Source of the DNA: Tubulanus polymorphus
Lineage: Eukaryota > Nemertea > Palaeonemertea > Tubulaniformes > Tubulanidae
Length of the DNA: 64,000 bases
Reading direction: 5' to 3'
Assembly (NCBI RefSeq): GCF_964204645.1
Contig: NC_134025.1
Location: 7,817,001-7,881,000, forward strand
Under the pieces are notes generated by a model, which did not search any database, had not been told where the DNA came from, and saw nothing but the letters and a program-made list of their open reading frames with translations. This document shows, in pieces, positions 28,242-49,421 of this stretch (the first letter of the stretch is position 1; the number at the start of each line of letters is the position of its first letter). The position numbers and the translations under genes are program-made.

Positions 28242-31200
28242 ATGTTTGATAAGATCGACAAGTCCAAAGTATCGGTTCTATTTGCCGTATTGGAGAGCCT
28301 TATATTGGTTTTCATGGTGAGTGAACTCCTTCAATTAGATTAACTGATTTCATAATAATGAAAGCTTACAAACAATATATTTAATAACATTAGAATGAAG
28401 TAAGAAGGAATTTCCGTTGTTTCCTGTGTTCAACTAATTATACTGTTATTGTCATGATTGCATTTCCATACATATTTCAAAATATTAAGAGAATAGTTGC
28501 TTCAGCCTACACTGGGAGAACCATCCTTTCCATTCATGAAATATTTGTTTTCTGATTAGATTTCGTTCTCGTGATGTTTTCAGGGCAATGTCCACGGCGA
28601 TGGGAAGCTTCGTGTAGCATTGTCGAGTTCATCGGAATTCCGACATCGTCCTCATAATTGGCAAATCTTGCTCGTCAGAGAAGAAGTGTATCTTTTAGAA
28701 AAATGTGCCATGAATTCAAATGCCAAAACGTGTGAACTGCCATTTGAGCAAACTACAGTAAGCAAGAACTCAATCAACACTCCCGTTGCTTCCTTTATTT
28801 CTACGTAAAAAACATGTAATCATCAAAAAAGGTTTGTTAAATTGATAGGATCTCCATATTGAAATACTATTTCAAACGTCCAAGAACAGATACAAACTAA
28901 ATTTTGATGAATTACCACGAATTCAAGATTTAGACATAAGCGTTAAATGTTCCGCGAACTTTTACGGGCCAGAATGTGATAGATACTGCAATGTCGACGC
29001 TGCTGATGCTCATCGACTTTACTGCGATAGCAACACCGGCATGATGCTCTGTCAACCTGATCGTATGGGGGTAAACTGTTCCGAAAGAGGTTAGTCTTTA
29101 TCAGAGATGTACGGTCCCCGTTTATAAGAAAAGTAGTCCTTGTAAATCTTTTAGAATGAGCAAAATTAATTATTGCTTCTTCCCTCTGACGAGAACTGAC
29201 ACAAACAGAACATCAACTGTTTCACTATGTTCAAACATCAGTTATTAATCATGCTGATTTCAATGTAGCGTATGGACCGTTTTTGGACGAAAAAAAGGCG
29301 AAGGGTTTTTTGGCTCCGAATCCGCACCGACGGGTAAAACGAGCAAATTTTGGTTTTCTCGAAGAGCTACTGCAAGGTAACAAAGAGAGGGAATGCGAAG
29401 AGGAAACGTGTAATTTTGAAGAAGCGAGGGAGGTTTTCGAGAATGACCAAGCCACAGTAAGTCTTATAAGATAGCACATGATAATATAGCACTAGCGCTT
29501 TCAACTAAAGAATATGATTTCCAATAAACATCAATACCGATATCGTTTTGTGGTTTCTAGCATCGAAAATGGAAACATTTATATATTTCTTTCATTTCAG
29601 CACAGATACTGGGCAAGAAAACACGGTTCGTTAATAAATTAATTCAGCTCCCATTATTCCTACACATGCACGACGTTATGAGATAGAATTTTGAGTTATC
29701 ATGCCCTCTAAAATTGTCTTGCAGACCCTAATGATTGTAGTCCGTACCCGTGCTATGTGACAGGGTCATACCGATGCACAGACTTGTTTCGGGCTTTCAC
29801 ATGCCACTGCAAACCTGGATGGTCAGGAAAAACATGCGGGATAAGTGAGCTTACTTTTGAAAATATAGAATCATTCGCCGTTTCATTTTTCCAATTACAT
29901 AATTTAAGTGGTTTTCCTCATTTACACAGACGATAAGCTCTCAAAGCTTTTTATTCTATGAATTTCAGATATAGATGACTGCGAGTCAGTTATATGCCAA
30001 AACGGAGGCCACTGCTCGGTAAAGGAATGCGTTATTTAAAGAACTTCATTAGATTAATTGATAATAGCAATTGCGATGAATCACTACTAATCGACCTTAT
30101 CATCTTTTTCAGGATCTGATAAATAACTACAAATGTAACTGCAAACCCGGCTATACCGGAAAACTCTGCCAAAGTGAAATCAACGAATGTTTATCGAATC
30201 CGTGTAAAAATGCTGCTAAATGCGTTGATAAAATCAATGGATGGGAATGCAAATGCAGACCAGGATACACAGGTTTTCTATCGTAGAAATCAAACACTTT
30301 CTACGGAAAGCAATTTACCTGATCTTCTCTCTTCTTTTTGCTTTCATAGGAAACCAATGCGAAACGAATATAAATGAATGTCAACTGGTTCAATGTCATA
30401 ACGGGGGAACTTGTAAAGATTTGGTGAACGCTTTTGAGTGTAAATGTCTACCCGGATATACTGGTTCCAATTGTCAAACTGATATAGACGAATGTGCGCC
30501 CGCTCCATGCGAAAACGGTATCAAAGTTTATAAGGAAGTTTTCTAAAAGTTTCAACTACAATAATGGGTTTTCGTATCGAGGCTATGTTTTATACTTTAA
30601 CAGGAGGTCAGTGTCGTGATAAAGTCAACGATTTTGAATGTATTTGCAAACCTGGCTATTCCGGAAAGAGATGCAACATCGATATTGATGAATGTGCCCC
30701 AAAACCTTGTAAGAATGGCCAATGTATCGACAGAATCAATAGTTATTTGTGTTCATGCCAGGCAGGTGAGTTTCAAGCTGAGAATACGGTAGCATGGCGA
30801 CATTCTCACTAGCAGCTGCAGGAGATGAAAAAGGACTCCTTGGTTACATGCTCGTTGTAGTTCATTACCAATCTCGCAAATTGAGTTTCATGAACACACC
30901 TTGAGTTAAACTTGATTAATATACAATGATATTTCAGGATTCGTTGGCCAAAACTGTCAAACGAATGTCGACGACTGTCTATCGAAGCCGTGCAAAAATG
31001 GTGCCAATTGCACTGATGGTGTAAATGATTTCCAATGTGGCTGTAATCCTGGTTGGACTGGCAAAACGTGTGAAATCAATATCGATGAATGTAAAAGCAA
31101 TCCCTGTGTAAACAATGGACACTGTGAGGATCAGTTAAATGATTTCAAGTAAGGAACCATCTTCTAGTCGTTCTTGTAAAGCTGCATCCTTTCTAAACAA

Positions 31201-47000: not shown

Positions 47001-49421
47001 ATTCTATTGCGTTAGATATATAGATACATAATATGTCCATCCTTTGAATAGCTTCTGCGCCGATACGATCAGACGAGGCCGAATCAGTCGCAGCTTTATA
47101 TCGAACGAAAGATTGTCGCATGGCTCAATGCAGAAACTCCGGATCGTGTCAATTGAATAATCTCACTTCGGAATACCGGTGTATCTGTCCGTAAGAATTT
47201 TGTTGCATTTCCAGTATTACCGCTGTAGATAGTCCACTGTTTGAAAATATTTCAGTAATTTGTGTAAATTCTAAACATCGTAATGGCGCAAGATATATTC
47301 ATTTACTTTGTAGGTCACCGTTCTCCGGGGATTTCTGTGACCAAATGGATGCAGATGCTAACAATGATGACGGTAAGTTACTAGAAACTATATGATATTA
47401 CGCATGTAGGAATAACCAGGAATATCCAGTGCACTGAACTCTATATTTGAAGGTGTAGATATTAGTCACAATAATTTCACGGATGCTTGCAAAAACCGAA
47501 CAGATAACTGTCAAAATAACGGAACTTGTTACACGTACGAAGAAAATAAGATTGCGTGTTTGTGCACAACTGGGTTCATCGGAAATTACTGCGAATTTGG
47601 TGAGACTGACATGTATTTTATCAGGCCCAAACTACTGACTTTTGAATGAAAATCTAAAACAATACTATTTTGTTAGCGATCGACTTCTGCGAGGGTTACC
47701 CACTTCCAAATCTAGCCGAAAAACTTTGTGGTAAAAACGGACGATGTGTCAACTCTCCTACTGGCTATTCGTGCCGATGTAACCGAGGTTTTGCCGGACC
47801 TAACTGTAACGAAGGTAACGATCTGATCAGCTTTGTTCTTACATCTTATCCGTGCACTGAATTCACAGTCACATTATATACACATCGCTCTTCCTAGATA
47901 TATCTGATGATCCGTGTAAAATGAACCCGAAAGCAAATTTCACATGGATGAACGGCTGCAACAAGTGTTGGTGTAAATTAGGAGTAGGATACTGTTCAAA
48001 TGTAAGTCAAATAGGTTTGATAGCCGGTGTTATTCATATTTACCACATCCATGATGAAATAATGAATCTATTTAAAGCAATGGTGTGGCCCTTCGTCTTG
48101 CAAGATTTCGCAGGATTGTTCGAGCGAGGAGGTGTGCCAGGTGTCTGGTAAATCTTCGTGTCTGGTACAGCCATGCGACACAACCGAGACATGTCAATCC
48201 AGGTTAATGACCCAATGTAGCACGTCTATGCAACATTCTGTCCTTGACTGCGTCGTGCGGCGTGGAATCCTTGACGTATCAAAAGAACCGAAGGTTATTA
48301 CGTTGATTGACTTGAGATCTGAGTTAACCTGAATTCTTTATCATGCCCAGAATTAATTTTCGGTTGTGATTTCCAGGGTACAGACCTTGAAACATGTTGT
48401 CGGGAATTCCGAAAACTGCCGCTGATGTTTGAATATTCGTTAGAATCGTCATTGAGCCTGCGATGTGAGGCCGGATCTTTTAGGTCGACAGATGAACCAC
48501 GAACAGTAGAGATATATCTGACAATGGTATTGTATCCCACGCATTTCTTTTTCATGTTTAATGTAACGTCATTCTCCTTATGGAAAGAAATACGTTAGAT
48601 AATAAATCAAATCTTTATGTCTTGGTAGGAAAGTAATCGAGGAACAACAAACGCATTCTACGCAATGGAAAAACTTGCTGAACATCTTCGGGAAAATAAT
48701 ACGAATGCGTGCTCCAATTTAATCTTCGCTACTTCCACAGCAAGTAATGATGCCCCGAAGACGGCAGGTATGTATATTGCAAAACATCTGCTAAAAGTGG
48801 TTTTCAACTTGGCCGGTGTAACTATTTGGAGGCGATGGCAAACGCTTTGTAGGGAAGGCAGATATAAATTATAACTTATGACTGTTTTTCGGATAGTTAA
48901 AATATTTTATTGGAAAAGCATTTATGATAATATTTTTAGGCTCATCGAACGCTTGGATCATTGCAATAACCACACTAGTGTGTCTGACTATAATCGTCCT
49001 GATCGTTGTATTCGCACTGTACATTAAACATAAGGCTAGGAAGAGAACAGCTGTCATGGTAAGACATCGCGAATTCTCACGACGGTCGAGATGCGGAAAT
49101 GATCTACAGGATTACAACCGGAAAAGTTATATATCCCTCGGAGAAGGGTCGCATCACGGCGCGTTGGTGAATCCGGCACACGGCGACAAAGATTCGGGAC
49201 ATTCGACGTGCGAGGATAACCAGGAGGAGACGGCCATGACGACAAAACCTGAGATTCCCATTCTACAGAAAGTCGAATTACGGAGAGCGCTGTCAAGGGT
49301 GTCATATGTCGATGAGCTTATGGACCGCATCCACTCACAAGAACCAGAAGATATTCAACTACCGCTCGAAACAACGAAACCCGCGGAAAAAGCACCCATT
49401 TCAATGATTGACCAAATTTAG
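44068..49421 (+). CDS. DSL-Gla-EGF transmembrane protein, copy C (Jagged-like, divergent)
   Basis: Eighteen exons give 903 residues: 44068-44112, 44977-45138, 45233-45536, 45634-45812, 45972-45996, 46195-46317, 46398-46481, 46612-46714, 46818-46966, 47052-47190, 47314-47372, 47453-47599, 47677-47814, 47898-48001, 48114-48293, 48377-48526, 48629-48767, 48940-49421. Order: signal peptide, N-terminal region, DSL (125-167), propeptide (VFINKALAQTFL, RRRVKR to 191), Gla (GNLQREC, EETCSWEEAFEAL, then EFFRRKN), 6 divergent EGFs, a cysteine-rich region like the VWC/juxtamembrane part of Jagged (NGCNKCWC, CLVQPCDTTETC, VEIYLTM), TM (about 749-772) and a tail without NPxY. The donor at 48293 (AAG|GTTATT) was chosen because it restores alignment with Jagged. 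It is the least conserved copy. Confidence 0.87.
45634..45996 (+). other. Gla module of copy C: propeptide, Gla domain and 25-nt exon
   Basis: Exons 45634-45812 and 45972-45996 (25 nt, HEFFRRKN) keep the phase 1-0-1 layout. The propeptide F172, A178, L182 and the RVKR site are intact. The Gla domain itself has drifted: ERE is QRE and the AREVF segment is AFEAL, while the Cys-x4-Cys pair and most Glu pairs remain. Confidence 0.88.
46110..46170 (+). repeat. tRNA-like (SINE-type) promoter fragment in copy C intron 5
   Basis: TGGCTGAGTGTA at 46120 resembles a pol III A box and GGCTCGAATCC at 46144 a B box. The spacing is shorter than in a tRNA and no cloverleaf forms, so this is at best a SINE remnant. 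Confidence 0.3.
46752..46810. repeat. 22-bp direct repeat before a splice acceptor in copy C
   Basis: GTTGAATATACTCACGCTGG occurs at 46752 and again at 46789. The second copy lies just before the acceptor of exon 46818. Confidence 0.7.

Follow-up and report, generated by a model that had tools for sequence, protein, structure and literature searches.

Three tandem genes of Tubulanus polymorphus that join a DSL domain to a clotting-factor-type Gla module, and their possible role as membrane-binding receptors

The stretch of DNA analysed here, called the window below, is 64,000 nucleotides (nt) long and corresponds to C1:7817001-7881000 of the Tubulanus polymorphus genome (267.8 Mb in 77 contigs). 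It contains three genes, arranged head to tail on the + strand, in each of which a DSL domain, known from Notch ligands, and a Gla domain, known from vitamin-K-dependent clotting factors, are encoded in a single gene model. An earlier note on this DNA had described three tandem DSL-Gla-EGF-transmembrane genes between 28242 and 49421, and this description stands: position 28242 is the ATG of gene 1, position 49421 is the stop of gene 3, and each spliced model is open and carries a signal-like stretch, DSL, Gla, an EGF array, a transmembrane segment (TM) and a tail. The function suggested with it, that of a Notch-type ligand, is doubted here, and a membrane-binding adhesion or uptake receptor of Jagged descent is considered in its place. 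The genes are as follows:

28242..33785, + strand: gene 1, 20 exons, 1108 amino acids (aa); signal-like stretch, short N-terminal region, DSL, propeptide, Gla, about 17 EGF repeats, TM, tail with NPAY, NPLY and NPLY
37484..43329, + strand: gene 2, 20 exons, 1089 aa; architecture as in gene 1, tail with two NPTY
44068..49421, + strand: gene 3, 19 exons, 880 aa; same domain order, fewer EGF repeats, Jagged-type cysteine-rich region, TM, tail without NPxY

The gene models were built from open frames, splice sites and a small purpose-written dynamic-programming gene finder, and were then corrected by hand. All 56 introns (19, 19 and 18 in genes 1, 2 and 3) have GT-AG ends, and the spliced models are free of internal stops; since GT-AG was imposed as a condition of the models, this agreement is a matter of consistency and not a proof. 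Two in-frame acceptors are available for exon 4 of gene 2, 38744 (leading to 1089 aa) and 38765 (leading to 1082 aa). The former is preferred because a gap-free match to gene 1 extends up to the AKxFL motif; the form with acceptor 38765 was used in hmmscan, in the part-by-part conservation values, in the residue comparisons and in the EGF and motif counts. The middle of gene 3 is uncertain in the model (exon 46942-46966 and its neighbours). The hydrophobic N-terminal stretch was flagged computationally in genes 1 and 2 and was judged by eye in gene 3 (MISTLLLLMIVGYIQ), and each of the three proteins has one strong TM segment near its C-terminal end. A side observation concerns intron 6 of gene 2, where an identical translated stretch occurs on both strands at 39374-39671 of the window; it points to an inverted repeat, which could be a small mobile element.

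The combination of domains is encoded by three consecutive exons in each gene:

28849..29089, + strand: gene 1 exon 3, remainder of the N-terminal region and DSL (match 28948-29085)
29269..29456, + strand: gene 1 exon 4, entered in phase 1 and left in phase 0; codes for the propeptide, with HRRVKR at its end, and for Gla (match 29358-29459)
29601..29625, + strand: gene 1 exon 5, a mini-exon of 25 nt (phase 0 to 1) for the aromatic stack, HRYWARKH
38381..38657, + strand: gene 2 exon 3, DSL (match 38516-38653)
38744..38943, + strand: gene 2 exon 4, entered in phase 1 and left in phase 0; codes for the propeptide, with F-x5-A-x3-L and RVKR, and for Gla (match 38842-38931)
39019..39043, + strand: gene 2 exon 5, 25-nt aromatic-stack mini-exon NEYWARKH
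45233..45536, + strand: gene 3 exon 3, DSL (match 45398-45532)
45634..45812, + strand: gene 3 exon 4, entered in phase 1 and left in phase 0; codes for the propeptide, VFINKALAQTFL...RRRVKR, and for Gla (match 45717-45812)
45972..45996, + strand: gene 3 exon 5, 25-nt aromatic-stack mini-exon HEFFRRKN

Both domains were checked with Pfam profiles by hmmscan, the queries being the first 345 residues of gene 1 (1108 aa in all), 357 residues from the N-terminal part of gene 2 and the whole of gene 3, and both score above the curated cut-offs in all three genes. For Gla, the E-values in genes 1-3 are 2.3e-15, 1.9e-11 and 8.8e-11 (56.9, 44.4 and 42.2 bits; cut-off 27). For DSL, they are 9e-6, 3.7e-5 and 1.9e-7 (26.3, 24.3 and 31.7 bits; cut-off 24.2), gene 2 exceeding the cut-off by 0.1 bit only; in the genome-wide scan the same domains reach 31.0, 31.1 and 38.1 bits. 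That scan finds DSL in six places, three within the window and three elsewhere. The Jagged-like spacing of the DSL cysteines, pointed out in the earlier note, fits all three genes.

The Gla domains contain the Glu cluster and the Cys loop, and the Gla-EGF1 part finds clotting factors in PDB (gene 1 against factors IX and X, 2e-19; gene 3 against factor X, 2e-15). The exon anatomy is of the same kind. The succession of intron phases 1-0-1 together with a 25-nt mini-exon is present in all three copies (in gene 2 with acceptor 38744), and exon 3 of F9, F10, F7 and PROC is likewise 25 nt long, with phases that agree. In F9, as described in a passage of one article, exon 2 encodes the propeptide and Gla and exon 3 the remainder (PMC12097292). 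A phase 1-1 module of propeptide, Gla and aromatic stack is the trace expected from exon shuffling. A profile scan of the genome, with a limited set of candidates scored exon by exon, detected Gla in three places only, all of them in the window; the propeptide-Gla exon of gene 1 as a query, at E up to 10, returned the same three places, again among limited candidates that diverged exons could escape. Between genes 1-2, 1-3 and 2-3, the conservation of Gla plus stack is 66, 53 and 55%, compared with 54, 37 and 39% for DSL, 47, 39 and 47% for EGF1, 31, 23 and 22% for the N-terminal region and 50, 43 and 65% for the propeptide (48, 43 and 62% with acceptor 38744). Gla plus stack is the most conserved of these five parts in two of the three pairs.

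The earlier note had Gla following DSL directly, which needs correction: a separate exon, entered in phase 1, places a propeptide of 25, 28 and 21 aa (genes 1, 2 and 3) ending in RVKR between them. The introns separating DSL from this exon measure 179, 86 and 97 nt and could hardly accommodate the border between two genes; the junction, moreover, is repeated in all three copies. The motif F-x5-A-x3-L is found in the propeptides of all three genes with acceptor 38744 and of two with acceptor 38765, and A-x3-L in all three with either; the consensus quoted in part of the literature on these propeptides is Phe-16, Ala-10 and Leu-6 (PMC5578492). In PDB, the gene 1 propeptide falls on the propeptide and Gla part of PRRG2 in 9bvp, a carboxylase entry, at E 0.015 with a short query, and a longer query including the whole Gla domain gives 1.3e-12. 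RVKR is invariant in the three proteins and is the sole R-x-K/R-R between signal and TM in each. The number of cysteines N-terminal of it is even (8, 10 and 8 in genes 1, 2 and 3), so a disulphide to the remainder of the protein is not required and release is allowed. From the invariance of RVKR, its uniqueness and the even cysteine number, we infer a furin cut; Gla would then probably form the N-terminus of the mature protein, and the DSL part would be a removable propiece.

To place the three genes, the genome's other DSL and Notch genes have to be considered. There is a canonical-looking Delta at C1:31.35 Mb and a canonical-looking Jagged, with its DSL at C1:20.44 Mb and an MNNL domain 21 kb away that was assigned to the same gene. 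The names were given in this analysis, that of Jagged being backed by a DSL closest to Jagged-2 chain 5mw5 (1.1e-19). The Notch NOD domain has one match in the genome scan. A further DSL gene, at 20.53 Mb (C7:20534022-20534615 region), encodes MNNL, three EGF repeats (by eye) and a TM in a single open frame of 591 aa, with Asn at the position of JAG1 Phe207; it is possibly a retrocopy.

Evidence on ancestry comes from the membrane-proximal parts of the proteins, encoded by the following exons:

33208..33785, + strand: gene 1 last exon, encoding the TM and a cytoplasmic tail in which NPxY occurs three times
47898..48767, + strand: gene 3, four exons, Jagged-type cysteine-rich and juxtamembrane region
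48940..49421, + strand: gene 3 last exon, end of the juxtamembrane region, TM, tail

In one part of a survey of DSL architectures, a cysteine-rich VWC-type region before the TM is used as a criterion for Jagged/Serrate (PMC2770060). The corresponding region of gene 3 gives two collinear tblastn matches with the cysteine-rich region of the genome's own Jagged, one of 20.6% over 160 columns at E 9.4e-5 and the other at E 0.04; here and in the comparisons that follow, the E-values refer to a database of five fetched stretches of this genome only. The region has no Pfam VWC match and finds nothing useful in a PDB search, and it was not seen in genes 1 and 2. In gene 1, the last EGF matches the long EGF of the own Jagged over its full length (41%, E 2.4e-11; next best 3.4e-8). 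The same comparison is weak for gene 2 (E 1e-6; next best 1.4e-6), and the last EGF of gene 3 has a Delta EGF as its best match and no Jagged signal. In PDB the last EGF of gene 1 finds chiefly Notch and other general EGFs, Jagged not being among the matches. Taken as a whole, the comparisons moderately support the descent of the three-gene family from Jagged.

The claim of the earlier note that these are Notch-type ligands is not supported, as far as working ligands are meant. MNNL was not detected in the three genes: PF07657 matches three other loci only in the genome scan, and hmmscan at E 0.001 gives none; a short diverged remnant of MNNL is possible. At the position of JAG1 Phe207, Ala is found in gene 1, Lys in gene 2 and Ile in gene 3, whereas the genome's own Delta and Jagged have Phe there (the letters are those of an alignment with Jagged-2 chain 5mw5, and the numbering is that of JAG1). 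The positions of JAG1 Arg201 and Arg203 are altered in all three genes. According to a portion of a study of Jagged-1, the F207A change drops Notch binding to background (PMC3888931). DOS-type EGF1-2 repeats were found in none of the three genes with a pattern of our own, which recovers one of the two in the genome's own Jagged. A structure prediction of the DSL exon was uninformative, with a mean predicted local distance difference test score of 45.8.

The modification of Gla domains depends on enzymes, and matches to these are present in the genome. The carboxylase profile PF05090 has nine matches at two loci on C4 (22.87 Mb and 26.60 Mb), and pieces of both loci match the gamma-carboxylase (GGCX) in PDB. 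In both, Lys is found at the position of Lys218, a residue that we take to be functional: the second Lys of an aligned KK is residue 218 of chain 13ib_A (range 206-242). The automatic gene models of the two loci are noisy and were used for open frames only. The probable intron in which the first locus carries a tandem repeat (GPGFRMSDRV in one frame) is noted as a separate observation. VKOR has matches on C2 and also on C6, where in-frame stops occur; the best one, C6:3315770-3316114, contains four in-frame TAA and may be interrupted by an intron or belong to a defective copy.

Behind the Gla domain, EGF repeats number approximately 17, 17 and 6 in genes 1, 2 and 3 when counted by pattern. The tails of genes 1 and 2 have a common sequence stretch, with three NPxY in gene 1 and two in gene 2. 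PPxY and LPxY are absent from the tails of all three proteins.

It is proposed, with about an even chance of being right, that the products are not Notch ligands but adhesion or uptake receptors of Jagged descent, which are matured by furin and bind membranes in a calcium- and vitamin-K-dependent manner. In the proposed course of events, a phase 1-1 exon pair of clotting-factor type, encoding propeptide, Gla and aromatic stack, would have been placed between the DSL domain and the EGF array of a Jagged descendant. When the genes are transcribed, as we infer them to be, the animal's own carboxylase would bind the internal propeptide in the endoplasmic reticulum and carboxylate about 10 Glu, and furin would cleave at RVKR in the Golgi. 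The mature product would be a type I protein consisting of Gla, an EGF rod, the TM and the tail, with the DSL part either released or held non-covalently. In the presence of calcium, Gla would bind a phosphatidylserine-type membrane in trans or in cis, and the NPxY tails of genes 1 and 2 could couple to adaptors with a PTB domain. Of the earlier interpretation, DSL and Gla in one gene model in three copies hold up, and so does the vitamin K side, with Gla well preserved, a propeptide of carboxylase type before it and matches to carboxylase and VKOR in the genome; the working Notch ligand is not supported.

Several observations weigh against this proposal. On the side of carboxylation, the second carboxylase locus has in-frame stops in three of its five matched stretches and may not be intact (some introns read through in the carboxylase matches also carry such stops), and the Gla domain of gene 3 has Gln at one Glu position. 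The propeptide is internal, unlike that of clotting factors, which adjoins the signal peptide, and its Ala lies at -15, -18 and -14 instead of -10, that is 4-8 residues farther from the cut, although the internal spacing is unchanged; in pair 2-3, the propeptide (62-65%) is also more conserved than Gla (55%). On the side of cleavage, looser basic sites ([RK]xxR or KR) are present elsewhere in the ectodomains. The tail of gene 3 lacks NPxY, and the link from NPxY to PTB adaptors is a general one, drawn from other receptors. On the side of the lost ligand activity, the six DSL cysteines and their spacing are retained in all three copies, so that DSL is not simply decaying. The Pfam family EGF_DL_JAG also touches the EGF that follows Gla, gene 1 reaching 26.3 bits and gene 2 a marginal 27.2 against a cut-off of 27, and ligand-type EGFs may have been retained.

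In another reading, the proteins are real Notch ligands or modulators. The Gla domain would then replace phospholipid binding by C2, and furin or vitamin K would gate activity, with either the uncut form active or the shed DSL part acting as a soluble agonist or antagonist. Besides the retained cysteines and the marginal Delta/Jagged EGF match, the Jagged-type descent and the presence of a Notch gene speak for it. It is also in line with excerpts of two studies in which the N-terminal C2 domain of canonical ligands binds liposomes of phosphatidylcholine, phosphatidylserine and phosphatidylethanolamine and a change in the site lowers Notch activation by Jagged-1 (PMC3888931, PMC5538765). However, the changes at the Phe207, Arg201 and Arg203 positions in every copy, in a genome whose own Delta and Jagged keep Phe, the undetected MNNL and the very presence of canonical Delta and Jagged make a Notch ligand or modulator unlikely. 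A still less probable reading treats DSL as a vestige with a task limited to folding or trafficking and the proteins as PRRG-like regulators of the trafficking of other receptors. It agrees with the lower conservation of DSL and the N-terminal region than of Gla in all three pairs, but PPxY and LPxY, described as marks of PRRG proteins in part of one article (PMC5578492), are missing from the tails, and EGF arrays as long as those of genes 1 and 2 suggest a role for which the protein must reach out from the cell surface.

It could also be asked whether each locus yields two products, one a short protein with DSL and the other a protein with Gla, EGF and TM, falsely joined in the gene model. 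When the DSL frame is read on beyond the donor, it ends after one codon in gene 1 and after three in gene 3, and a transcript that retained this intron would thus encode a short DSL protein. In gene 2, the intron upstream of the Gla exon holds an ATG in the Gla frame, and a weakly hydrophobic stretch comes after it. However, the DSL frame of gene 2 runs without a stop across the 30 codons read, gene 1 has no comparable ATG near the Gla exon, and the ATG of gene 3 is not followed by a signal-like run. The short introns, the compatible phase 1 junctions in all three genes and the threefold repetition favour the joined DSL-Gla form. A split of the genes is unlikely, and a false joining of two proteins at each locus appears very improbable; short products with DSL alone or Gla alone are possible, whether in addition to the joined form or in its place.

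Returning to the furin-matured receptor, its parts can be compared with known systems. The order of signal, N-terminal region, DSL, EGF array and TM is that of Jagged/Serrate, and the cysteine-rich and juxtamembrane region of gene 3 and the long EGF of gene 1, weakly also that of gene 2, resemble their counterparts in the own Jagged. Unlike Jagged/Serrate, the three genes carry a Gla module behind DSL and a predicted furin site; MNNL was not detected in them, the pattern search gave no DOS-type EGF1-2, the Notch-contact Phe is changed, and the tails of genes 1 and 2 contain NPxY. With the PRRG/TMG proteins (PRRG1-4) they share a TM together with propeptide and Gla, and the propeptide of gene 1 aligns with that of PRRG2; to our knowledge, PRRG proteins have neither DSL nor EGF. 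In the article portion already mentioned, PRRG proteins are short and have PPxY/LPxY tails (PMC5578492). The light chains of factors IX, X and VII and of protein C are similar in the order propeptide, Gla, aromatic stack and EGF, in giving the best PDB matches and in the F9-like exon layout partly described in PMC12097292, but differ from the present proteins, which have no protease domain, an internal propeptide after DSL and a membrane anchor. CED-1, Draper and MEGF10 are EGF-rich transmembrane uptake receptors with NPxY tails, not known to have Gla or DSL and with another EGF type, and offer a functional analogy only.

The earlier note knew of no described protein with both DSL and Gla, and none was found here in 5.39 million open-access full texts among the matches listed; subscription papers, preprints and protein databases, where automated entries may exist, lie outside this scope. 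The combination does not appear in the available parts of the DSL-architecture survey (PMC2770060) and of a review of invertebrate Notch (PMC10970066).

In the vicinity, the window contains a class C G-protein-coupled receptor-like (GPCR-like) gene at 488-2650 (- strand), an EF-hand protein at 49810-50196 (- strand), a member of the Tctex-1 family at 51733-52419 (+ strand) and a rhodopsin-type GPCR in a single open frame at 55629-56825 (- strand). Elsewhere in the genome, a compact Hox cluster of about 320 kb lies at C6:5318228-5634747; its Lox5-like flank, two Lox2/Lox4-like flanks and Post2-like homeodomain are what we take to be lophotrochozoan signatures.

Invertebrates have carboxylase and VKOR, but beyond the venom peptides of Conus little is known of the natural substrates. 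Drosophila without the carboxylase gene shows no visible phenotype, and proof of a vitamin K cycle is lacking there (PMC12112360). The anemone protein Sym32 is proposed as a carboxylase substrate in part of one article (PMC3141003). Here, the enzyme genes occur together with just three detectable Gla-domain genes, which belong to one family, and this makes the role of the carboxylase directly testable. A more far-reaching idea, held tentatively and leaning to the doubtful side, is that the Gla proteome of this animal consists of former Notch ligands only. The exon pair would have entered a Jagged gene, and removal of DSL by furin would have turned the product into a vitamin-K-dependent phosphatidylserine receptor; if the cleavage is regulated, a soluble DSL-type factor and a Gla-type receptor would come from one gene. 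The three genes may help to explain the purpose of vitamin K chemistry in this animal. A clotting-factor-type exon module inside a protein descended from a Notch ligand, in a probable lophotrochozoan, bears on the spread of such modules, and the family would be a natural example of a signalling ligand rebuilt as a different surface protein.

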